Source of the DNA: Gemmobacter aquatilis
GTDB taxonomy: Bacteria > Pseudomonadota > Alphaproteobacteria > Rhodobacterales > Rhodobacteraceae
Direction: 5' to 3'
Assembly: GCF_900110025.1 (NCBI RefSeq)
Contig: NZ_FOCE01000001.1
Coordinates: 124,001-188,000 of the forward strand
Length of the DNA: 64,000 nucleotides
The position numbers and the translations under genes were made by a program. The notes below the pieces were generated by a model. It was not told where the DNA came from and did not search any database. It saw nothing but the letters and a program-made list of their open reading frames with translations. Shown in pieces: positions 26,734 through 35,496 of the stretch; within the stretch, counting starts at the first letter, position 1, and every line of letters begins with the position of its first letter.

Positions 26734-26758
26734 AACGCGGGGTGTCCATTCCGGTTCC
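26734..26758 (-). promoter_or_regulatory. EcfG promoter for the DUF1328 gene
   Basis: On the minus strand GGAAC (26754-26758) is followed after 16 bases by CGTT (26734-26737). This is the general stress sigma factor consensus of Alphaproteobacteria. It lies 56 bases upstream of the DUF1328 start. The match is direct; activity is inferred. Confidence 0.75.
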
Positions 26759-26836
26759 GTCGGCTGTCTCATTTTCGGCGCGGCGCAGGTTACATTCGGT
26801 CTTAAGTCCAATCTTGATCTGCGTTAGCTTTTTGCC

Positions 26837-26861
26837 GGAACCACCGGGCCGAATATGCGTT
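26837..26861 (+). promoter_or_regulatory. EcfG promoter for the hypothetical gene at 26914
   Basis: GGAAC (26837-26841), 16 bases, CGTT (26858-26861). It reads toward the 122-residue hypothetical gene, about 50 bases ahead of its ATG, and is divergent from the DUF1328 promoter. Confidence 0.75.
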
Positions 26862-26913
26862 TGCAATGCTGAGGCATCGGTGATGCGCCGGGCAGGGACA
26901 ATGGAAGACGGGA

Positions 26914-27282
26914 ATGCCGATCAGACGCGCAATAGCCATGGTTCTGACGACGCTGGAGGACAGCCTCGACTTGCTGGAACAGGCCCAAAGCGCTACGCCC
27001 TCGACCGGGCTGAAGGGTATTCTGGTACGCCGCCGCCGCGCGACAGTCGTGTTGCGCCACCGGCTGAGCCGGAAGGAACGCCCGGTCCATCGCATCCGCA
27101 TCGCCCCGGTCGCCCCCGGCCCGACAGAGTTGATCGGGATGGAAGCAAGGTTGCAAGAGCGCCTTGACGCCGCGCTGCAAGTGCCCGGTCTGGACCCCGA
27201 TCTGGCCGCCGTGCTGCACAATCTGCGACTGGAGGCCGAACAGGCGCGCTTTGCCCTTGCGGCGCTGGCGCAGCGCAACTGA
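26914..27282 (+). CDS. Hypothetical protein, probable general stress regulon member
   Basis: A 122-residue protein I do not recognise. It has no membrane segment or signal peptide. The first 60 residues are basic (LVRRRRATVVLRHRLSRKERPVHR). The second half is helical and acidic (LQERLDAALQVPGLDPDLAAVLH, then LRLEAEQARFALAALAQ), a possible coiled segment. A GGAAG-type ribosome-binding site precedes the ATG, an EcfG promoter lies upstream, and a strong terminator follows within 15 bases of the stop. The defined transcription unit supports a real gene despite the lack of a known family. Confidence 0.65.
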   Translation: MPIRRAIAMVLTTLEDSLDLLEQAQSATPSTGLKGILVRRRRATVVLRHRLSRKERPVHRIRIAPVAPGPTELIGMEARLQERLDAALQVPGLDPDLAAVLHNLRLEAEQARFALAALAQRN

Positions 27283-27296
27283 GCCTCCTGAGAAAA

Positions 27297-27325
27297 GGCC
27301 CGCCCCTTTCGGGGCGGGTCTTGTT
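27297..27325. terminator. Bidirectional intrinsic terminator
   Basis: A 10-base stem (GGCCCGCCCC / GGGGCGGGTC, one wobble pair) closes a TTTC loop. It is followed by TTGTT on the plus strand, and by TTTTC on the minus strand. It ends both the hypothetical gene and the convergent csbD gene. Confidence 0.85.
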
Positions 27326-27339
27326 CCGTGCGTGTCAGA

Positions 27340-27537
27340 TCAGAGCTTGCTGCCCCATTCCTCCACTTCACGTTCGGCCTCTTCCTTGGCGCGACCATAG
27401 CGGCTTTGCACCAGCCCGATCAGTTGATCGCGCTTGCCTGCCGCCTGATCCAGTTCGTCGCCGGTCACGTCGCCCCATTTTTCGCGGGCTTTGCCTTTGA
27501 CCTGTTTCCACTGACCTTCGATCTGATCCCAGTTCAT
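27340..27537 (-). CDS. CsbD-family stress protein
   Basis: A 65-residue CsbD protein, MNWDQIEGQWKQVKGKAREK then WGDVTGDELDQAAGKRDQLIGLVQ. This is the typical hydrophilic helical repeat of a family induced by general stress in many bacteria. I take the start at MNWDQIEG, which has GGAGA upstream; an earlier in-frame ATG would add 13 unlikely residues and reach the promoter. An EcfG promoter lies 38 bases upstream. The cellular role of CsbD is unknown. Confidence 0.9.
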   Translation of the reverse strand: MNWDQIEGQWKQVKGKAREKWGDVTGDELDQAAGKRDQLIGLVQSRYGRAKEEAEREVEEWGSKL

Positions 27538-27574
27538 GGCGTGATCTCCTCTCACATGGTTGTTACGCAAGAAC

Positions 27575-27599
27575 AACGCCAGAGCGGTGATCGGGTTCC
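27575..27599 (-). promoter_or_regulatory. EcfG promoter for csbD
   Basis: On the minus strand GGAAC (27595-27599), 16 bases, CGTT (27575-27578). It lies 38 bases upstream of the csbD ATG and fits the alphaproteobacterial general stress consensus exactly. Confidence 0.78.
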
Positions 27600-27637
27600 C
27601 GGCAGCCGGAAAACCGCATTCGTCAGGCCGGTATGTG

Positions 27638-29446
27638 TCAGGTTATATCCGTATTTTCCGGCTCATCTGCCGCCAGCCGCGCTTCGGCATTTGCCAGGGC
27701 GCTGGGGCGGAAATCAAAGCGCAGGATGAATTCGCCATCGTGCTCCTCGCGGGTCACGGCTGTGCCAAGCTGCGCAGCAAAGGCCCGGACCAGCGCCTCG
27801 CCCAACCCGGATCCGCTGGCGTCGCCCTCCATCAGCGCCGGATGCGGGCCGCGGCTTCCGGTGATGCTGTTGGCAATCTCGACGCCCGCCCGGCAATCCG
27901 GCAGGCGCCGCAGGCAGACACGCAGCCGGGGCCGCTGCCCCGCAGGCGCCGAGGCATATTTCAGCGCGTTGGTCAGAGCCTCGGTCACCAGAAGCGACAG
28001 GGGCACCGCCTGATCGGGGGTCAGGTGGATGTCGTCCAGCGTGGTTTCCACAAGGAAAGGAGCGCCCGGTTTGCCGCCCATCCGCAGGATCTGTTCCAGA
28101 ATCCGCTGCAACAGTTCGTCGGCACGGATATCGGTCAGGCCGGTGGTCTGGTAAAGTTCGCGGTGAATGGTGGCCAGACTCATCACCCGGTCCTGCAACC
28201 CCTTCAGCGTGGTCTTGCTTTCGGGGCTGCGTGCCTTGCGGATCTGCATGTTGATGATCGAGGCAATGAGCTGCAAGTTGTTCTTCACCCGGTGATGCAC
28301 CTCGCGCAGCAGCACCTCTTTCTGGTGGACCATATCTTCCAGCTCCGCCTCGTCATGCAGCACGCTTTCCATCATCCGCTCGAAGGCGAGGCCGACGCTT
28401 TGCAGTTCCAGCGGCGCATGATCCAGATCCAGGTCCGGCAGGCGGCGGTTGCCCGCCGCAAAGGAGGTGATCGAGGCGCGCAGCGTGCGCATATGGCGCA
28501 AGACCTGATGCTCGGCGGCCAGATGTGCCACAAGCAGGCTCGCCAGCCACATCAGAACGGGGTAGGCAATGATCGGGATCGGCGTACGAAAAATCGTGAC
28601 ATCGGTCGCGGTCATCGGCCAGTTGCCCAACAGAAACACCGACCCCGACGCCAAGGGCACCACGGCAAAGACCCGCTCCACCCCTCCGACGGAATAGCCT
28701 GTGAAACTTGTCGCCCCGTCGCCGGTCAGCGCCTTCAGGCTGCGGTCACGGGGCAGGCGCTGCGGCGCGGCATCCAGGCCGACGCTGGTGGTCAGCAGGG
28801 TGCCTTCCTGGTCGAAGGTGATCAGCGCGACGGGATCGGTGCCGGGCTTCGCCGTGGCATCGGCGACGGCTGGCAGCGTCAGCGCGGCATGGGGCAGCGA
28901 CAACGACACCAGACCGATTACCACGCCCCGGACATCCCGCACCGGATGCGAGAAGATCAGCACGCTTTGATGCGATACCGGACCATTGCGGTTCACCCGC
29001 ACCTTCGGGGCGCCTGCATCCATCAGGTCGCGCAGATAGCCCATCGCCGTCAGATCCCGCGCGCCCTGCGGCGAACAGTCCATCTGCAGATTGCGCGGGA
29101 CATAGCCCACAAAGGTGTATTGCGCATTGCCCGGCTCGGCCAGAAACCGTGCCAGAAGTGCCGTACAGGCCACGGGATCGCCCACCACACCGGGCAAGGC
29201 CGCGGCCAATGCGTTCACAGCCCCCTGCCCCCGCAGGATTTCTTCCACCAGCGGGGCGGCGGCGCGCATCGTGGCGCCCAGCACTGCCGCCTCGGCCCGG
29301 GCGGCGGCTTCGGTCTGGTATTGACGGGTCTGCACATAGCTCAACACCGCAAGCGGCATCATAACGATGCCGAACATGATCATCAGCCGAAACCCCAGCC
29401 CCGAAACAAAGGGATGCAACCGCGCGCGCAGCTCTGCGAGCGTCAT
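27638..29446 (-). CDS. HisKA_2/HWE-type sensor histidine kinase of the general stress response
   Basis: A 602-residue membrane kinase. Helix 1 is at about 19-38 and helix 2 at about 288-310, with an extracytoplasmic sensor domain between them. A HAMP-like linker is followed by the HisKA_2 dimerisation segment with the phospho-acceptor in REVHHRVKNNLQLIASI (residues 381-396), then an ATPase domain (VTEALTNALKYA). Kinases of this group phosphorylate PhyR. The start makes an ATGA overlap with the ecfG stop, so it is the third gene of nepR-ecfG-kinase. The open frame extends upstream but inside ecfG. The stimulus is unknown. Confidence 0.88.
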   Translation of the reverse strand: MTLAELRARLHPFVSGLGFRLMIMFGIVMMPLAVLSYVQTRQYQTEAAARAEAAVLGATMRAAAPLVEEILRGQGAVNALAAALPGVVGDPVACTALLARFLAEPGNAQYTFVGYVPRNLQMDCSPQGARDLTAMGYLRDLMDAGAPKVRVNRNGPVSHQSVLIFSHPVRDVRGVVIGLVSLSLPHAALTLPAVADATAKPGTDPVALITFDQEGTLLTTSVGLDAAPQRLPRDRSLKALTGDGATSFTGYSVGGVERVFAVVPLASGSVFLLGNWPMTATDVTIFRTPIPIIAYPVLMWLASLLVAHLAAEHQVLRHMRTLRASITSFAAGNRRLPDLDLDHAPLELQSVGLAFERMMESVLHDEAELEDMVHQKEVLLREVHHRVKNNLQLIASIINMQIRKARSPESKTTLKGLQDRVMSLATIHRELYQTTGLTDIRADELLQRILEQILRMGGKPGAPFLVETTLDDIHLTPDQAVPLSLLVTEALTNALKYASAPAGQRPRLRVCLRRLPDCRAGVEIANSITGSRGPHPALMEGDASGSGLGEALVRAFAAQLGTAVTREEHDGEFILRFDFRPSALANAEARLAADEPENTDIT

Positions 29447-30018
29447 GCCGCCTGCGCCCCCGATCGGCTCATCACCGCAAGCGTCTCGCCCGAGTCGGGC
29501 GCCAGAATCGCCTCCCCCGCCTCCATGCCCAGCAGCGCCGCCAGCTTGGCCCGGGCGCGGTTGGTGCGGCTTTTCACCGTACCTACCGCCACCCCGATCA
29601 TTGCTGAGGCCTCCTCGCAAGAATAGCCATTGGCGCCGACCAGAATCAGCACCTCGCGGTGTTCCGGCGAAAGCTGGTCGAAGGCACGCAGAAACTCGCC
29701 GAAGGCCAGCCGCCCGTCATGTTCCGGCTTGTCGTAAAGCCCCTGCGCGTGGATGCCATCAGGGTCGGCGACCTCGCGCTTGTGCTTGCGCTTGTCGGAA
29801 AAGAAGGTGTTGCGCAGGATGGTGAACAGCCAGGCCCGCAGATCGGTGCCCGGCGTGAACTTGTCGATGTTCGACCAAGCCTTGACGATGGTATCCTGCA
29901 CCAGATCATCGGCCGCAGAGAGGTTGCGCGTCAGCGAGATGCCAAAGGCCCGCAGCGCCGGAAGATGCAGGGCAATTTCGTCCCTCGGATCGGGAAGAAC
30001 GTGTGCGGGCACGGTCAT
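29443..30018 (-). CDS. ecfG: General stress response sigma factor EcfG
   Basis: A 191-residue ECF sigma factor. Region 2 is DDLVQDTIVKAWSNIDKFTPGTDLRAWLFTILRNTFFSD (about residues 37-75, shown here in two overlapping parts of the same stretch: DDLVQDTIVKAW and LRAWLFTILRNTF). Region 4 is LSPEHREVLILVGANGYSCEEA and VGTVKSRTNRARAKL (about 116-160). Its neighbours NepR (anti-sigma) and PhyR (anti-anti-sigma) identify it as EcfG, which directs RNA polymerase to GGAAC-N16-CGTT promoters. Its start overlaps the nepR stop (ATGA). Confidence 0.95.
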   Translation of the reverse strand: MTVPAHVLPDPRDEIALHLPALRAFGISLTRNLSAADDLVQDTIVKAWSNIDKFTPGTDLRAWLFTILRNTFFSDKRKHKREVADPDGIHAQGLYDKPEHDGRLAFGEFLRAFDQLSPEHREVLILVGANGYSCEEASAMIGVAVGTVKSRTNRARAKLAALLGMEAGEAILAPDSGETLAVMSRSGAQAA

Positions 30019-30173
30019 TTGCCCGCCTCCTTCGCCTTCAGCTGCGCCAGCAGGTCTTTGAACCGATCCGGGATTTCTTCCTTCAGCGCCTCTTCGTAGA
30101 CCTTCTTGAGGTTTTCGTCGATCTGCTGCTGCAGGCTGGACTTTGCTGGTTTTGAGGTCATCTCGTGCATCAT
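30015..30173 (-). CDS. nepR: Anti-sigma factor NepR
   Basis: A 52-residue protein, too short to be noticed without context. Its core LQQQIDENLKKVYEEALKEE plus IPDRFKDLLAQL is the NepR signature that wraps EcfG and is sequestered by phosphorylated PhyR. I start at the first ATG of MMHEMTSKPAK, preceded by GGAAAAAA; MTSKPAK (30161) is possible. It is the first gene of nepR-ecfG-kinase, with an ATGA overlap to ecfG, and has its own EcfG promoter upstream. Confidence 0.93.
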   Translation of the reverse strand: MMHEMTSKPAKSSLQQQIDENLKKVYEEALKEEIPDRFKDLLAQLKAKEAGK

Positions 30174-30201
30174 GGTTTTTTCCGGTCCTGCAACTTTACA
30201 T

Positions 30202-30226
30202 GGAACCAAACGCAAGTCAGCGCGTT
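30202..30226 (+). promoter_or_regulatory. EcfG promoter for phyR (plus-strand half of a symmetric promoter)
   Basis: GGAAC (30202-30206), 16 bases, CGTT (30223-30226), 45 bases before the phyR ATG. It shares nearly all its bases with the opposite-strand nepR promoter because the 32-base segment 30202-30233 is palindromic. Confidence 0.82.
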
Positions 30227-30233
30227 TGGTTCC
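30209..30233 (-). promoter_or_regulatory. EcfG promoter for nepR-ecfG-kinase (minus-strand half of a symmetric promoter)
   Basis: On the minus strand GGAAC (30229-30233), 16 bases, CGTT (30209-30212), 36 bases before the nepR start. The arms of the shared palindrome are GGAACCAAACGC and GCGTTTGGTTCC with an 8-base centre. It would give positive autoregulation of the sigma factor. Confidence 0.82.
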
Positions 30234-30270
30234 CAGAAAAAGCGATCCGAATCCACGACGGGGAGATCAC

Positions 30271-31068
30271 ATGCCTGCCGACCTCACTTCCGCCATCGGG
30301 GCCAACCTGCCCTACCTGCGTCGCTATGCGCGCGCGCTGACCGGCAGCCAGACCAGCGGCGACAGTTTCGCCGCCGCCACGCTGGAGGCGTTGCTGGAAG
30401 ACATGTCGGTGCTGTCTGCAGCCACCAGCCCGAAAGTGGCGCTGTTCCGCGCCTTCCATCTTGTCTGGGCCAGCGCCGGGGCGCCGGTGGGCGACGCGGA
30501 TTCGGCACTGGCCGCCAAGGCGCAGCGCCATATGGCCGCGCTGACCCCCAATTCGCGCGAGGCGCTGTTACTTTCAGTGATCGAAGGGTTTCCGCATGAT
30601 CAGATCGCCGAAATCCTGCAAATCGGCGATGCCGAGGCGGCAGAGTTGATCACCATCGCGAGAACCGAGATGGAAAACTCGATCGCCGGTCGGGTGATGA
30701 TCATCGAGGATGAGGCGATCATCGCCATGGACATCGAGGATATCGTGACCGAGATCGGCCATTCCGTTACCGGCATCGCCCGTACCCGCGACGAGGCGGT
30801 GGCGCTGGCAACCCGCATCCGCCCCGACCTGATCCTGGCCGACATCCAGCTGGCCGACAATTCCTCGGGGATCGACGCCGTGAACGACATTCTGGGGCAG
30901 TTCGACGCGCTGCCGGTGATCTTCATCACCGCCTTCCCTGAACGTCTGCTGACCGGAACGCGCCCCGAACCGGCCTTTCTGATCACCAAGCCCTTCTCGG
31001 AAGAACAACTCCGCTCGGCGGTCAGTCAGGCGATGTTCTTTGCCTCAACCGAAACGCTGGCCGCCTGA
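30271..31068 (+). CDS. phyR: General stress response regulator PhyR
   Basis: A 265-residue protein with an EcfG-like N-terminal half (residues 1-130; GANLPYLRRYARALTGSQ and LTPNSREALLLSVIEGF) and a receiver domain (141-260). The phospho-acceptor is Asp191 in LILADIQLAD and the conserved lysine is in FLITKPFSEEQL. On phosphorylation the sigma-like part captures NepR and frees EcfG. It is divergent from nepR. GGGGAG precedes the ATG; the upstream open frame runs through the promoter and is not coding. A strong terminator follows. Confidence 0.96.
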   Translation: MPADLTSAIGANLPYLRRYARALTGSQTSGDSFAAATLEALLEDMSVLSAATSPKVALFRAFHLVWASAGAPVGDADSALAAKAQRHMAALTPNSREALLLSVIEGFPHDQIAEILQIGDAEAAELITIARTEMENSIAGRVMIIEDEAIIAMDIEDIVTEIGHSVTGIARTRDEAVALATRIRPDLILADIQLADNSSGIDAVNDILGQFDALPVIFITAFPERLLTGTRPEPAFLITKPFSEEQLRSAVSQAMFFASTETLAA

Positions 31069-31088
31069 CAGGTGCGGCCGGACCGAAG

Positions 31089-31115
31089 AAAAAAGGGGGC
31101 TGCGGCTCCCTTTTT
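31089..31115 (+). terminator. Intrinsic terminator of phyR
   Basis: A stem of AAAAAGGGGGC with GCTCCCTTTTT, one wobble pair, closes a TGCG loop and ends in a T-run. It begins about 20 bases after the phyR stop codon. Confidence 0.88.
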
Positions 31116-31137
31116 GCTGCGTCTTCACAGGGTGCGG

Positions 31138-31162
31138 GGAACCGGATGCAGGCTTGCGCGTT
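31138..31162 (+). promoter_or_regulatory. EcfG promoter for the secreted protein gene at 31228
   Basis: GGAAC (31138-31142), 16 bases, CGTT (31159-31162). It lies between the phyR terminator and the secreted protein gene, 66 bases before its ATG. Confidence 0.75.
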
Positions 31163-31227
31163 GGTTGTGCAGGAGGGGAACACAGCAGTTCTCCCCACAT
31201 CACTCCCCAACAACATACGAGGTTTCC

Positions 31228-31713
31228 ATGCGTATTCTTCCCGCCATGACCCTGCTTGCCACCTTGGCCCTGCCGCTGACCGCCCATGCCAAAGATCTGA
31301 CGCCGGTCGAAAGCGTCAAGGTTGAAACCGATGTGACGGCGATTTCCAACCCCGCCGCCGCGCGGTTCTGGGGCCGTTTGTCAGATGACCTGACTGCCGC
31401 AATCCTGTCGCGCGTGCAGCCGCGCATCGCCGACAAGGGCCTGCGCATCTATGTTGACATCAACGAGGTGTCGCTGGCCAACAGCTTCCAGACCGCGATG
31501 GGCACGCAGGATTCGATCCTCGTCGGGCAGGTAAACGTCTCCAGCGACGACAACGCCAAGTTCGACGCCTATGAACTCACCGTGTCGATGGAGATGGCGA
31601 ACCGCTATCTGCCCGAAGGCACCGTGGCGATGACCAGCCTGACCGACACGCCCGAACACTATCGCGCGCTAGTCAGCGCCTTTGCCGAAAACGTGGTCGA
31701 ACGCCTGAAGTAA
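31228..31713 (+). CDS. Secreted hypothetical protein, probable general stress regulon member
   Basis: A 161-residue protein with a signal peptide (MRILPAMTLLATLALPLTAHA, cleavage after AHA). The mature part contains VKVETDVTAISNPAAARFWG, SRVQPRIADKGLRIYVDINE and ILVGQVNVSSDDN. The pattern suggests a small periplasmic alpha/beta protein, but I recognise no family. The ATG follows CGAGG. It is separated from phyR by a terminator and has its own EcfG-type promoter, so it is an independent stress-regulated unit. It converges with the glycosyltransferase gene 32 bases away. Confidence 0.78.
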   Translation: MRILPAMTLLATLALPLTAHAKDLTPVESVKVETDVTAISNPAAARFWGRLSDDLTAAILSRVQPRIADKGLRIYVDINEVSLANSFQTAMGTQDSILVGQVNVSSDDNAKFDAYELTVSMEMANRYLPEGTVAMTSLTDTPEHYRALVSAFAENVVERLK

Positions 31714-31745
31714 GCGCTGCGCGGGCCCCTGCCATGGGGCCTGCG

Positions 31746-32420
31746 CTACACCCGCCGCCGCCGCAGGGTGACAATCTGCGACAGTGCCGCCGTGGGGCGG
31801 ATGGTGCGGAACATGTCGGCCAGCATCGCGGCATCGGCTGCAAGCCCCGGCCAAAGCCCGCGCTTGGCGGCCTTGGCCGGGCTGGCGACCCCCGGCCAAT
31901 CCACCACCGCGACACGCAGGCCCTGCGCGATCCACAGGGTGTTCAAAAATACCTCGAAGCCGAATTTCGGCAGGCGCAGCAGATCGCCCTCGCGCCCGTT
32001 CAGCAATGCGCGTGAAAACACCCGCTCGCCCGAGATGTAATCCAGCCCGATCCAGCGCCACAGCCTTGGCGCATTGCCGCGCAGGCTCAGCGTGGCCTGC
32101 GCCCGCCCCTGCCGCAGCGGCATCACCAGCGCGGTGATGTCGGCGGCGGACAGGCCGGTAAGATCGCTGTCGATCAGCATCACCAGATCATGGCGCGCGG
32201 CGCGCAGCCCCTCGGCCAGGGCGGCGGTCTTGCCGCGATTGGGGCTCAGGCGCAGCAGCGTCACCGGAAAGGCGGCGGCCACCTCGGCCGTGCCGTCGCG
32301 CGATCCGTCATCCACCACGATCACCTCGGCGATCAGCGGATGGCGGGTCAGCACCTGCAACACGGCGGCGATGCGTGGCGCCTCGTTATGGGCGGGCACG
32401 ATGCAGGTGATGAGGGTCAT
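31746..32420 (-). CDS. Family 2 glycosyltransferase
   Basis: A 224-residue GT-A glycosyltransferase starting MTLITCIVPAHNEAPRIAAVL. It has the nucleotide-sugar motifs VIVVDDGSRDGTAEVA near residue 35 and LVMLIDSDLTGL near 85, the latter supplying the metal-binding DxD. There is no obvious membrane segment. Last gene of a four-gene minus-strand operon; the start makes an ATGA overlap with the DedA gene. It probably adds a sugar to a lipid-linked acceptor made by this operon. Donor and acceptor are unknown. Confidence 0.82.
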   Translation of the reverse strand: MTLITCIVPAHNEAPRIAAVLQVLTRHPLIAEVIVVDDGSRDGTAEVAAAFPVTLLRLSPNRGKTAALAEGLRAARHDLVMLIDSDLTGLSAADITALVMPLRQGRAQATLSLRGNAPRLWRWIGLDYISGERVFSRALLNGREGDLLRLPKFGFEVFLNTLWIAQGLRVAVVDWPGVASPAKAAKRGLWPGLAADAAMLADMFRTIRPTAALSQIVTLRRRRV

Positions 32421-33001
32421 GGCGCCACCCGATGCCGACGCAGCAGGCACAACCCGATCCAGCCGATGGGCAGCAGCAGCGCCAGTGACACCGCCGCGAT
32501 CCAGTCACCGATCAGCGCATGGGCATCGCCCAGCAGCCAGCCCAAAGCCGCGAAGACGGCGGTCTTGGGCAGGGTGGCCAGCAGGTTCCAGAACAGGAAG
32601 GGCAGCAGCGGCATCCGTGCCACGCCCGCCGCCACCAAGACCATCGCCCCGGCGGAATGGGTCAGCTTGCCCAGCATCAGCGTGCGCGCACCTGCGCTGC
32701 GGAAATGGCTGGCCAACGCCGCCACCCGCGCCGGGCGCAACCCCAGCAGCTTGCGCAGGCCGCGCGGCAATGTCGGCAACAGCCCGCGCCCCAGCGCATA
32801 CAGCACCAGATCCCCCGCCAGATCGGCCAACACCAGCACCAGCAGCAAGGGCTGCAAGCCCAGCAGCCCGGCCCGCGCCATCCAGACCGAAATCACCGTG
32901 ACAATCGGCCCTTCCAGCACCGCGACCGGCGCGATGACCCACAGGCCGTATTGGTTGATCAGTGTGGCAAAGCCTTCGGGCGTCAGCATCGGGTCAGGCA
33001 C
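32417..33001 (-). CDS. DedA-like membrane protein
   Basis: A 194-residue integral membrane protein with four to five helices. GLWVIAPVAVLEGPIVTVISVWMA near the N-terminus carries the DedA-type E-G-P segment. RSAGARTLMLGKLTHSAG (about 100-118) resembles the conserved F/L-x-R-x-x-P/K region of the DedA/VTT fold. DedA proteins are lipid flippases or proton-coupled membrane proteins. It overlaps both neighbours by a few bases. MLTPEGF, four codons later, is an alternative start. In this operon a role in moving the glycolipid product is plausible. Confidence 0.75.
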   Translation of the reverse strand: MPDPMLTPEGFATLINQYGLWVIAPVAVLEGPIVTVISVWMARAGLLGLQPLLLVLVLADLAGDLVLYALGRGLLPTLPRGLRKLLGLRPARVAALASHFRSAGARTLMLGKLTHSAGAMVLVAAGVARMPLLPFLFWNLLATLPKTAVFAALGWLLGDAHALIGDWIAAVSLALLLPIGWIGLCLLRRHRVAP

Positions 33002-34106
33002 GCTCCGGCTGCGGGGCCAGCGCGGTGCCGCGCCACACGAAGCTGCGGCTGCGGAAGGTGGCCAGCCACAGCGCAGGCATCAGCACATCGCGCAGCGGCA
33101 GCGCCAGCAGATCGCGCCCCCGCATCGGCCAGCCGTGCGCGCGCGCCAGCGCTGCCTCGGCGCCATACCAGATCGCCAGATACAGCGGCAACGCGGTGAC
33201 CTGCAGGGAGGACAGCGCAACCGCCCCCGCCATGGCAAGGCCGGGCAGCAGCGCACCATTCAGCGGCTCCATCAGGAACACCGCCGGAAACCCGTCACGC
33301 CGCACCTTCGACCAGCGCAATTGCCGCGCCCAGACATCCGCCGCGCGGCGCTTGCCGATCGGCTGCGCAAAGGGCCGCGCGGTCAGCCGCACATGCCGCC
33401 CCTGCCCGCGCACCACCTTGGTTGCCGCCACATCCTCGGCCAGATTGCCGCCCAAGGCGCGCAAGCCCCCGGCCTGATTGAGCAGATCGCGCTGCCAGCA
33501 CAGCGTCTTGCCCTGCGCAAAGCCAAAACCCAGCCGGTCGGCGGCCAGTTGCAGCCGTGCCTGATTGGTATTGAGGAAGGCACATTCCACCGCCCCCCAC
33601 AGCCCTTCGGGCCGCGTGCCCACGGCGGGCGAGGTGACCAGCCCGCAGCCCGGATCCCATGTCCCCGCCAGTTCGCGCAGGTAATCGGGTGGCAGCAGCA
33701 GGTTGCTGTCAGCCATGGCGACAAACGGGGTCTCGGCCTCTGCCCAGCCCTTTTGCAGATTGTTCAGCTTGGGGTTGCCGCTGATCCGGTCTTCGCCAAT
33801 CAGCAGCGTCGCGGGCACGGCGGGATGGGCGGCGATCAGGCGGCGCAGCAGCCCCACCGCCGGGTCATCCGCCCGCGCGGCGCAAAAGATCAGCCGGAAA
33901 TCCGGGTGATCCTGCGTGAAGCTCGATTCCAGCGTTTCCGCATCGAACCGATCCAGCCCGCAGACCGGGCGCAGCAGGGTAACGGCGGGCAGCGGGCCGG
34001 TGGCAACCTTGCGACGCAGCGGCACGGCCAACAGCACGCTGGCCAGATGCAGGGCCAGCATCAGCCCGGCCACTGCGGCGCAGATCCAGAACAATGCGGG
34101 CATCAT
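32994..34106 (-). CDS. Ceramide glucosyltransferase-type glycosyltransferase (GT21/HpnI-like)
   Basis: A 370-residue membrane-anchored glycosyltransferase. Helix at residues 3-29. GT21 motifs follow: LLRPVCGLDRFDAETLES (near 45), MADSNLLLPPDYLRELAG (the D-x-D-like ADSN, near 130), GGNLAEDVAATK (near 225) and the product-site QLRWSKVRR (Q-x-x-R-W). C-terminal hydrophobic helices complete it. The family transfers glucose or related sugars to ceramide or hopanoid lipids. The start is ATGATG with an ATGA overlap to the metallophosphatase. Ceramide versus hopanoid cannot be told from sequence alone. Confidence 0.83.
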   Translation of the reverse strand: MMPALFWICAAVAGLMLALHLASVLLAVPLRRKVATGPLPAVTLLRPVCGLDRFDAETLESSFTQDHPDFRLIFCAARADDPAVGLLRRLIAAHPAVPATLLIGEDRISGNPKLNNLQKGWAEAETPFVAMADSNLLLPPDYLRELAGTWDPGCGLVTSPAVGTRPEGLWGAVECAFLNTNQARLQLAADRLGFGFAQGKTLCWQRDLLNQAGGLRALGGNLAEDVAATKVVRGQGRHVRLTARPFAQPIGKRRAADVWARQLRWSKVRRDGFPAVFLMEPLNGALLPGLAMAGAVALSSLQVTALPLYLAIWYGAEAALARAHGWPMRGRDLLALPLRDVLMPALWLATFRSRSFVWRGTALAPQPERA

Positions 34107-34912
34107 GCCACCTCTCCGGCCAGAACCCCGGCTTCGGGCTGCGCGGCGCGCAACACCTGCCGCCCGCCCAGCATCTGCAACCGCCCATCGGCGTCCTCGG
34201 CAATCGCGGTGAAACTGTCCACCCAATCGCCGCAATTGGCGTAAACCAGCCCGTGGCGGTTGTGCAGCGCCGCCACATGGAAATGGCCGCAGATCACCCC
34301 GTCATGCGCCTTTTGCCGGGCATGGGCGATCAGCTTGCGCTCGTGCTTGGTGCCAAGATAAAGCACCTCGTTCAGCTTGGCGATCACCCATTCGATCGGG
34401 CTGCGATCCTCGGGGCGCAGGCTGCCGCGCAGATGGCGCAGCGCCCCGTCAAACCGCCGCAGCAAACCGTCGATCCGGCTGCCGATCCGCGTCCAGATAT
34501 GCCAGCGCAGCACCCGGGCATCGCAAACATCACCATGCAGCACCAGATAGCGCCGCCCGTCTGCCGCCAGATGGCTGATCTCGCGGCACAGCCGCGCCGG
34601 GAAATGGCCGCAATCCTCGGCGCCATCCAGCGCGTGATCGTGGTTGCCGACCAGATAGATCAGCTCAGCCCCCTCGGCGGCACGCTGGCGCAACAGCGCA
34701 ACAATACGGTCCTGCACCGGCCCCCAATGCAGTGTCAGCGGGTGCCAGATGTCGAGGATATCGCCCACCAGATAGATGCGATCCGCCGTGTTCCGTTCCA
34801 GAAAATCGCGGATCAGGTCGGCCCGGCAACCCAGCGCACCAAGATGCAGATCCGACAGAAACAGGCTGCGGTGATGCCGGGGCGGCGCGGGCGGGGTGCC
34901 GTAACTGCTCAT
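34103..34912 (-). CDS. LpxH-like metallophosphoesterase (UDP-2,3-diacylglucosamine diphosphatase-like)
   Basis: A 269-residue calcineurin-fold phosphoesterase. The five metal motifs appear in order: LFLSDLHLGALG (near residue 17), YLVGDILDIW (near 48), IYLVGNHDHAL (near 85), VLHGDVCD (near 125) and VICGHFHVAAL (near 205). LpxH and its relatives cut UDP-sugar lipid pyrophosphates. In this operon with a lipid glucosyltransferase it may act on an acyl or sphingoid phosphate. I start at MSSYGTPPAPP, with AGAGGTAAGGG just before; an earlier ATG has no site. An EcfG promoter match lies 149 bases upstream. Confidence 0.82.
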   Translation of the reverse strand: MSSYGTPPAPPRHHRSLFLSDLHLGALGCRADLIRDFLERNTADRIYLVGDILDIWHPLTLHWGPVQDRIVALLRQRAAEGAELIYLVGNHDHALDGAEDCGHFPARLCREISHLAADGRRYLVLHGDVCDARVLRWHIWTRIGSRIDGLLRRFDGALRHLRGSLRPEDRSPIEWVIAKLNEVLYLGTKHERKLIAHARQKAHDGVICGHFHVAALHNRHGLVYANCGDWVDSFTAIAEDADGRLQMLGGRQVLRAAQPEAGVLAGEVA

Positions 34913-35496
34913 TCCCTTACCTCTCTCGGCCCGGCGCACCGGAGCCTCACAAGCCTTCGATCCCGCATCCTACGGCATCAGGGCCGGCGGCGCGTATTCC
35001 TTGAACGCAGATCCGCGCGTTTCCGACGCCATTACGCTGCGCAAGCTTCGCTACACAGGCAACGGTATCGGCCCGGCGCGGTTCCCGGTCCTCCCTTGCC
35101 TGCCATGATCAGGCAAAGCTTTTGTGATGAAATTGCTGCACTGCCGCGACAGGCCCGACCCACGCCGCGTGCTGTCCGGTTTTGACTGCCACAATGTCGC
35201 AATCCTTACATGGCACAGGTCGCATTCAGGCTATTCTTTGTTTGCAAGCCGACTCCAGCGCCACGACTGGAAGCGAAACCCGCACTGCAATGCAGCGGGC
35301 GGCGGCAAGGGGGGCCAATTCCCTGCCGCCGGGGGCACAAGCCCCGCTTTCTGTCGCGGCGCCGGTCGGCGCGATATGTCAACCGCGAAGGCAAGAGGCT
35401 TCGCCGGTCTGTGGAGGCAGTCCGGTAAAGCGTCGCCCCTTCGTGCCCAGAATAGCCCGGACCTGCGCAGGGAGGCGTGGGCCAAGCGAGGATCAG
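34913..35496. other. 584-base gap between the lipid operon and the Rieske operon
   Basis: I see no coding sequence I would support here. It contains an EcfG promoter match on the minus strand (35061-35085) toward the metallophosphatase. It also has a weak sigma70-like TTGACT at 35182-35187 with TTACAT 18 bases on, pointing toward the oxygenase gene. GTCGCA occurs twice nearby (35196-35201 and 35219-35224), a possible regulator half-site. Open frames crossing it lack ribosome-binding sites. Confidence 0.5.
35061..35085 (-). promoter_or_regulatory. EcfG promoter match upstream of the lipid operon
   Basis: On the minus strand GGAAC (35081-35085), 16 bases, CGTT (35061-35064). It points toward the metallophosphatase-ceramide glucosyltransferase operon, 149 bases upstream of its first ATG. 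The long leader makes it less certain than the other copies. Confidence 0.6.

Follow-up and report, generated by a model that had tools for sequence, protein, structure and literature searches.

A palindrome between nepR and phyR of Gemmobacter aquatilis as a predicted pair of interlocked EcfG promoters, and the distribution of this layout among related families

PhyR, NepR and EcfG constitute an established partner switch, and in Alphaproteobacteria nepR-ecfG and phyR are divergent genes with EcfG-dependent promoters on both sides (PMC4814048). According to the accessible parts of the literature, the EcfG promoter motif is GGAAC-N16/17-CGTT (PMC7083833, PMC3892343), and the -10 element has also been given as C/GGTT (PMC12148442). 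In S. meliloti 1021 the transcription starts of rsiA1 (nepR) and rsiB1 (phyR) have been mapped downstream of RpoE2-dependent promoters (PMC3616915). For another sigma factor, E. coli sigma70, five bidirectional promoters have been studied (Warman et al., NAR 2026, PMC12825309). Like the element described below, these lie between divergent genes; promoters of this type consist of pseudo-symmetric DNA with starts on opposite strands and accept polymerase in one orientation at a time. Their starts flank or fall within a shared -10 element and are commonly 10, 18 or 23 bp apart. At the five promoters the two directions competed little at basal activity; strong activation of one of them brought competition out.

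We analysed a window of 64,000 nucleotides (the whole stretch of DNA under study) from Gemmobacter aquatilis. It contains a locus of the alphaproteobacterial general stress response type, in which nepR and ecfG adjoin in the same orientation and phyR is divergent (Table 1). The gene for a sensor kinase follows ecfG; its product scored 180 bits against the NCBIfam PhyK model NF051872, below the cut-off of 750. The genes, their divergent arrangement and their control by EcfG are those of the loci treated in PMC4814048, but an overlap of the two promoters is not described in the accessible part of that source.

The gap between nepR and phyR contains the sequence GGAACCAAACGCAAGTCAGCGCGTTTGGTTCC (30202-30233), a perfect palindrome with fully complementary 12-base arms and an 8-base centre, which is enclosed by a longer inverted repeat with 19-nt arms that are 84% complementary. 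When the window was searched for GGAAC-N15-18-CGTT, the palindrome matched at 30202-30226 on the plus strand and at 30209-30233 on the minus strand, with N16 in both, and the EcfG (ECF15) motif GGAAC-N16/17-CGTT is exact on either strand. An earlier note on this DNA had described the arms, the centre and the two motifs in the same terms, and the sequence confirms that description. The note also proposed that one element holds two EcfG-type promoters, facing phyR and nepR-ecfG-kinase; the motif, the identities of the genes and the symmetry kept in relatives support this. Its statement that the -35 and -10 elements of the two promoters share the same DNA holds for the 32 bp as a whole but not for the core boxes, which are interdigitated and have zero bases in common. 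Along the palindrome the order is plus-strand -35, minus-strand -10, plus-strand -10, minus-strand -35, and two bases separate each -10 from the opposite promoter's -35.

Table 1. Coordinates of the predicted promoter elements, the flanking genes and further EcfG-like motifs in the window
Feature	Position	Strand	Basis
Interlocked bidirectional EcfG promoter (predicted)	30202..30233	.	Palindrome and motif on both strands
-35 box GGAAC, phyR-facing promoter	30202..30206	+	Motif match; family conservation
-10 box CGTT, phyR-facing promoter	30223..30226	+	Motif match
-35 box GGAAC, nepR-facing promoter	30229..30233	-	Motif match; family conservation
-10 box CGTT, nepR-facing promoter	30209..30212	-	Motif match
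phyR, response regulator / anti-anti-sigma factor	30271..31068	+	Pfam PF22029, PF22233, PF00072; NCBIfam NF006623 over cut-off
nepR, anti-sigma factor (start = first ATG, assumed)	30015..30173	-	Pfam PF18557, E 6.2e-17; no NCBIfam match
ecfG, ECF sigma factor; 4-base overlap with nepR	29443..30018	-	Pfam PF04542, PF08281; NCBIfam NF009198 over cut-off
HWE/HisKA_2 sensor kinase, PhyK-like; 4-base overlap with ecfG	27638..29446	-	Pfam PF07568, PF07536
EcfG-like motif before DUF1328 gene	26734	-	Exact match
EcfG-like motif before 122-aa ORF	26837	+	Exact match
EcfG-like motif before CsbD-like gene	27575	-	Exact match
EcfG-like motif before 161-aa protein	31138	+	Exact match
EcfG-like motif before phosphoesterase-like ORF (by eye)	35061	-	Exact match

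EcfG promoters have their -10 element 6-8 bases from the transcription start. From this distance the phyR start would be expected at about 30232-30234 and the start on the nepR side at about 30201-30203; the palindrome lies 28 bases from the assumed nepR ATG and 37 from the phyR ATG. A terminator, or another hairpin in the RNA, was considered as the meaning of the palindrome and rejected because most of it lies upstream of both expected starts.

The loose motif GGAAC-N15-18-CGTT matches the window 8 times; 100 shuffled versions averaged 1.55 matches, and all stayed below 8. Perfect 12-base inverted repeats with loops of 0-20 gave 4 matches in the 64 kb, at 3 sites because two of the matches overlap, and repeats of the same size numbered 0 in three first-order resampled windows. 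In the 3.96-Mb genome the double element is present in a single copy (control, 0). A candidate for a second interlocked copy, at G000:C28:64656, was discarded: it shares bases with the end of a 312-aa ORF that by eye resembles LysR, and its second -35 is absent.

To describe variation among relatives we call a pair of promoters "interlocked" when the outer -35 boxes span 30-33 bp, as in the palindrome, and "back-to-back" when the -35 boxes are 4-10 bp apart. A search with PhyR yielded 287 relatives, the best 80 of which were kept as named loci. In 76 of these best 80 there is a divergent pair in which neither promoter has more than one mismatch, and all 76 spans are 31-33 bp. Of the other four, L038 and L071 are truncated where their contigs end; in L015 and L077 both -35 boxes are kept, at 32 and 33 bp, and a -10 box has decayed (by eye). 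Among plasmid records with a PhyR match, 10 of 23 were examined. The interlocked pair occurs on records of Dinoroseobacter shibae, Ketogulonicigenium vulgare and Gemmobacter fulvus: on plasmid p2 of G. fulvus it spans 32 bp and the 32-mer is identical to that of the window, and on pDSHI02 of D. shibae it spans 33 bp, differing in its unequal spacers of 17 and 16. The nepR-phyR gap of the Roseobacter litoralis plasmid record contains no such pair. Back-to-back promoters were seen in S. meliloti Ak57 (gap 5 bp), Methylobacterium bullatum (gap 9 bp) and Shinella (gap of 5 between the -35 boxes, by eye), and no pair was found in a Sphingomonas plasmid or in a second S. meliloti record. The S. meliloti locus, whose nepR and phyR starts have been mapped in strain 1021, differs from the interlocked element in layout, as judged from strain Ak57. 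On the record of Rhodobacteraceae bacterium S2214 (L263), also one of the ten, a variant was noticed by eye: a symmetric 32-bp element upstream of phyR keeps both -35 boxes, but both -10 boxes have changed from CGTT in mirror-image fashion; a shifted -10 preference of that organism's own sigma factor would explain the change.

We also compared families, identified here by code: f1 is the window's own family, which the named loci suggest is Rhodobacteraceae-like. Under half of the f1 genomes, sampled one per genus, had a NepR match (89/198). Matches were found in 30/190 genomes of the class and, by order, in 7/7 (that of f42), 66/96 (f5), 3/36 (f107) and 1/1 (f57). Divergent phyR was lacking at 9 of 97 f1 loci, which leaves 88, and at 9 of 23 in a mixed set of other families; two f1 matches, one near a contig start (G330) and a second, overlapping one in G322, were left out. 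Family f42 is represented by 7 genomes of two genera, and f5 by 31 loci, for the most part those with the highest scores among 69 NepR matches from 66 genomes.

The interlocked pair is the norm in the window's family. Both GGAAC boxes are exact in an interlocked pair at 78 of the 88 divergent f1 loci; the remainder have the nepR-facing promoter only (2), the phyR-facing promoter only (1) or neither (7). When the -35 boxes alone are considered, 81/88 loci have a pair at 30-33 bp (48 at 32, 25 at 33, 7 at 31 and 1 at 30), as against 7 of 4400 resampled regions with a pair at that spacing, and back-to-back boxes occur in 0/88. The earlier note's view that such complete overlap is unusual is not supported among the divergent loci of this family. 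The note had also named conservation of the symmetry among close relatives as a test of its reading, and the symmetry is kept, both in the named loci and across f1. A strict form of the element is present in 32/198 f1 genomes, one copy each (control, 0), and all 32 copies lie in the nepR-phyR gap when matched by hand to the list of loci.

Other families have a different arrangement. Family f42 resembles f1 (interlocked 6/7, back-to-back 0), whereas back-to-back pairs predominate in f5 (29/31, gaps 7-10; a 31-33 bp pair in 3/31) and f107 (3/3, gap 8) and occur in 4/14 loci of other families, among which the interlocked pair was found in 0/14. Outside f1 and f42, back-to-back pairs are present at 36 of 48 loci and a 31-33 bp pair at 3 of 48, with 31 of the 48 loci contributed by f5. 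There are therefore two layouts, each with narrow spacing, divided by family, and the back-to-back side comes largely from f5. In the f5 loci (L094, L104, L267-L295) we also observed a GGAAC..GTTCC pair spanning exactly 27 bp in 17 of 31 gaps; in L094, for example, it accompanies the back-to-back pair, and an AGTT overlaps the GTTCC. In a sample of the class, the strict pattern was found in 2 of 289 genomes, the window's own and G536, a member of another family. The G536 copy (L298:1501-1532) stands beside an ORF that matches only the receiver domain of PhyR, at 31% identity, and is not phyR; on its other side is the 3' end of a gluconolactonase-like ORF (by eye), and one direction would apparently run antisense.

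PhyR trees place f42 apart from f1. The main tree had 46 rows, with a random part of f1 and f5; long-branch rows and those under 200 aa were omitted, except for one long f1 row, which was retained. This tree requires 3 changes between the interlocked and back-to-back layouts, one of them at the f5 row L272, which holds both pairs or an extra pair, and a quick tree of 64 rows needs 2. When f1 and f42 were constrained to one clade the AU p was 0.124, a value at which a single origin is neither shown nor rejected. The occurrence of the layout in two families that the trees do not join hints at two origins.

We consider it very likely that the palindrome serves EcfG-RNA polymerase as a bidirectional promoter, which the enzyme would enter from one end at a time. 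Throughout the family the -35 boxes of both promoters, and for the most part their -10 boxes, are conserved at a constant spacing of 30-33 bp, and this speaks for use of both directions; the 7 of 88 f1 loci from which the -35 pair is absent count against this reading. Two alternatives can be set against 142 distinct elements, which were required to have both -35 boxes exact and neither -10 with more than one mismatch (the named loci and the family sample perhaps include some of the same organisms, and only identical elements were removed). The -10 boxes are intact on both sides in 89 elements, off on one side in 22, off on the other in 22 and off on both in 9. That one -10 departs from CGTT in 44/142 elements would suit a single functional promoter whose mirror copy is merely incidental or drives weak antisense transcription, as would the strict element of G536, which apparently has a gene start ahead of it in one direction but not in the other. 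However, neither side is favoured (22 vs 22), both -35 boxes are intact in 81/88 f1 loci, and an additional exact motif within 400 bases before phyR, a possible replacement, was found in just 4 of the best 80 named loci; we regard a single functional promoter as very unlikely. Improbable to at least the same degree is a site for a dimeric regulator lying over both promoters, with EcfG motifs that are partly coincidental or additional. The perfect symmetry speaks for such a site, and so do the S2214 arms, which by eye are still symmetric after both -10 boxes have changed. Mirror matching in the 106 elements with equal spacers, kinship being ignored, exceeded that of shuffled partners at arm positions 6, 7 and 11 (p 0.002, 0.034 and 0.007) and was also raised at positions 9 and 10 (p < 0.001), although a shifted register of span-31 elements can explain the latter excess; in the same elements the flanks and the centre showed no such excess. 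For comparison, we collected 111 lone EcfG-like promoters from the flanks of the best 80 loci (14 in reversed sequence). The base after CGTT, which is position 7 of the other arm, is T in 155/284 interlocked arms, but in lone promoters it is G in 53/110 and T in 27/110, a difference that two ordinary promoters do not fully account for and that speaks for the dimeric site. In contrast, lone promoters often have C directly after GGAAC (71/110) and G directly ahead of CGTT (76/110), as interlocked arms do (241/284 and 215/284). Against the dimeric site, too, the near-invariant positions are the EcfG boxes themselves, and the -10 boxes decay on the two sides without association (Fisher p 0.33, 142 elements).

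A further explanation takes the element to be the same bidirectional promoter but gives another reason for its persistence, and the confidence placed in the two overlaps. It supposes that a chance event in an ancestor brought the two promoters into overlap and that the geometry has lasted through constraint on the spacers, the overlap having no regulatory role. Both spacers grow when bases are inserted in the centre, and one spacer grows when they are inserted beside a -35 box; because an indel alters at least one 16-17 bp spacer, the layout can persist without being useful. The observed spans of 30-33 are the range that 16-17 bp spacers permit, and the small basal competition at the five sigma70 promoters (in the accessible part of PMC12825309) points the same way. 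If the geometry can be held in place like this, its conservation argues that both promoters matter, not that their overlap does. The hint of two origins in f1 and f42 stands against it, since presence in f42, if independent, would argue for more than inherited constraint, but an AU p of 0.124 does not reject a single origin. We put the chances of this explanation at about even. The stronger proposal, that the interlock itself has been selected, keeping the ratio of sigma/anti-sigma to PhyR constant at any EcfG level, that it evolved on two or more occasions (f1 and f42), and that the tight arrangement of other families is a second one, in which 4-10 bp separate the -35 boxes, is one we hold only tentatively and think rather doubtful.

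Under the bidirectional-promoter reading, stress would free EcfG, and the holoenzyme would enter the element from either end. Since one 32-bp stretch accommodates both promoters, with each start predicted at the outer margin of the opposite -35 box, polymerase should on steric grounds bind in either orientation and never in both together; the limit of one holoenzyme at a time, which the earlier note had proposed, is a well-founded expectation. Its further suggestion, that the regulator and the anti-sigma/sigma operon fire in mutual exclusion, is not supported in that form. Exclusion would apply per initiation event, the same sigma factor serves both sides, and the sides are about equally kept, so that co-expression from the shared site is to be expected; nepR-ecfG-kinase and phyR would probably be induced together once EcfG is freed. 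By simple occupancy reasoning, with equal arms each direction would keep no less than roughly half of the rate it would have alone, and arm strength, not the level of EcfG, would fix the proportion between the two outputs. We infer a shared, ratio-keeping start site with co-induction, and not an either/or switch or an alternation. How the NepR-EcfG-PhyR partner switch behaves depends on the proportions of its components, and a shared start site would be a simple way to keep these constant. Families with interlocked and back-to-back promoters at the same genes offer a natural comparison of how polymerase competition might shape a stress circuit.

Compared with the sigma70 type, the element would be read by an ECF sigma factor, has a full -35 and -10 for each direction, and has starts that would lie about 30 bp apart. 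Sequence symmetry is present, but there is no shared -10, the two boxes being separate (30209-30212 vs 30223-30226). The element may work like the promoters of Warman et al. with another anatomy. The divergent EcfG-controlled locus and the sigma70 bidirectional promoters were already known. No account of the interlocked ECF layout or of its division by family was found in the open-access literature covered, including the accessible parts of PMC5830050, PMC6599016, PMC8103513 and PMC3073932, and nothing relevant on overlapping or bidirectional ECF promoters or on the general stress response of Dinoroseobacter; nor was a mapped transcription start for the interlocked geometry.

Exact matches to GGAAC-N16/17-CGTT are not enriched genome-wide (39 matches vs 106 for a reversed-pattern control). 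Seven of the 39 fall within 8.4 kb of the window (26734-35085), two of them in the palindrome and the others before the genes listed in Table 1. The lack of genome-wide enrichment and the concentration near the locus suggest that the regulon may be small and clustered around its own regulator. Within this cluster, 26734-26861 is a second divergent EcfG-like pair, whose promoters do not overlap, the -35 boxes being 78 bases apart; it is a natural contrast to the interlocked pair at the palindrome.
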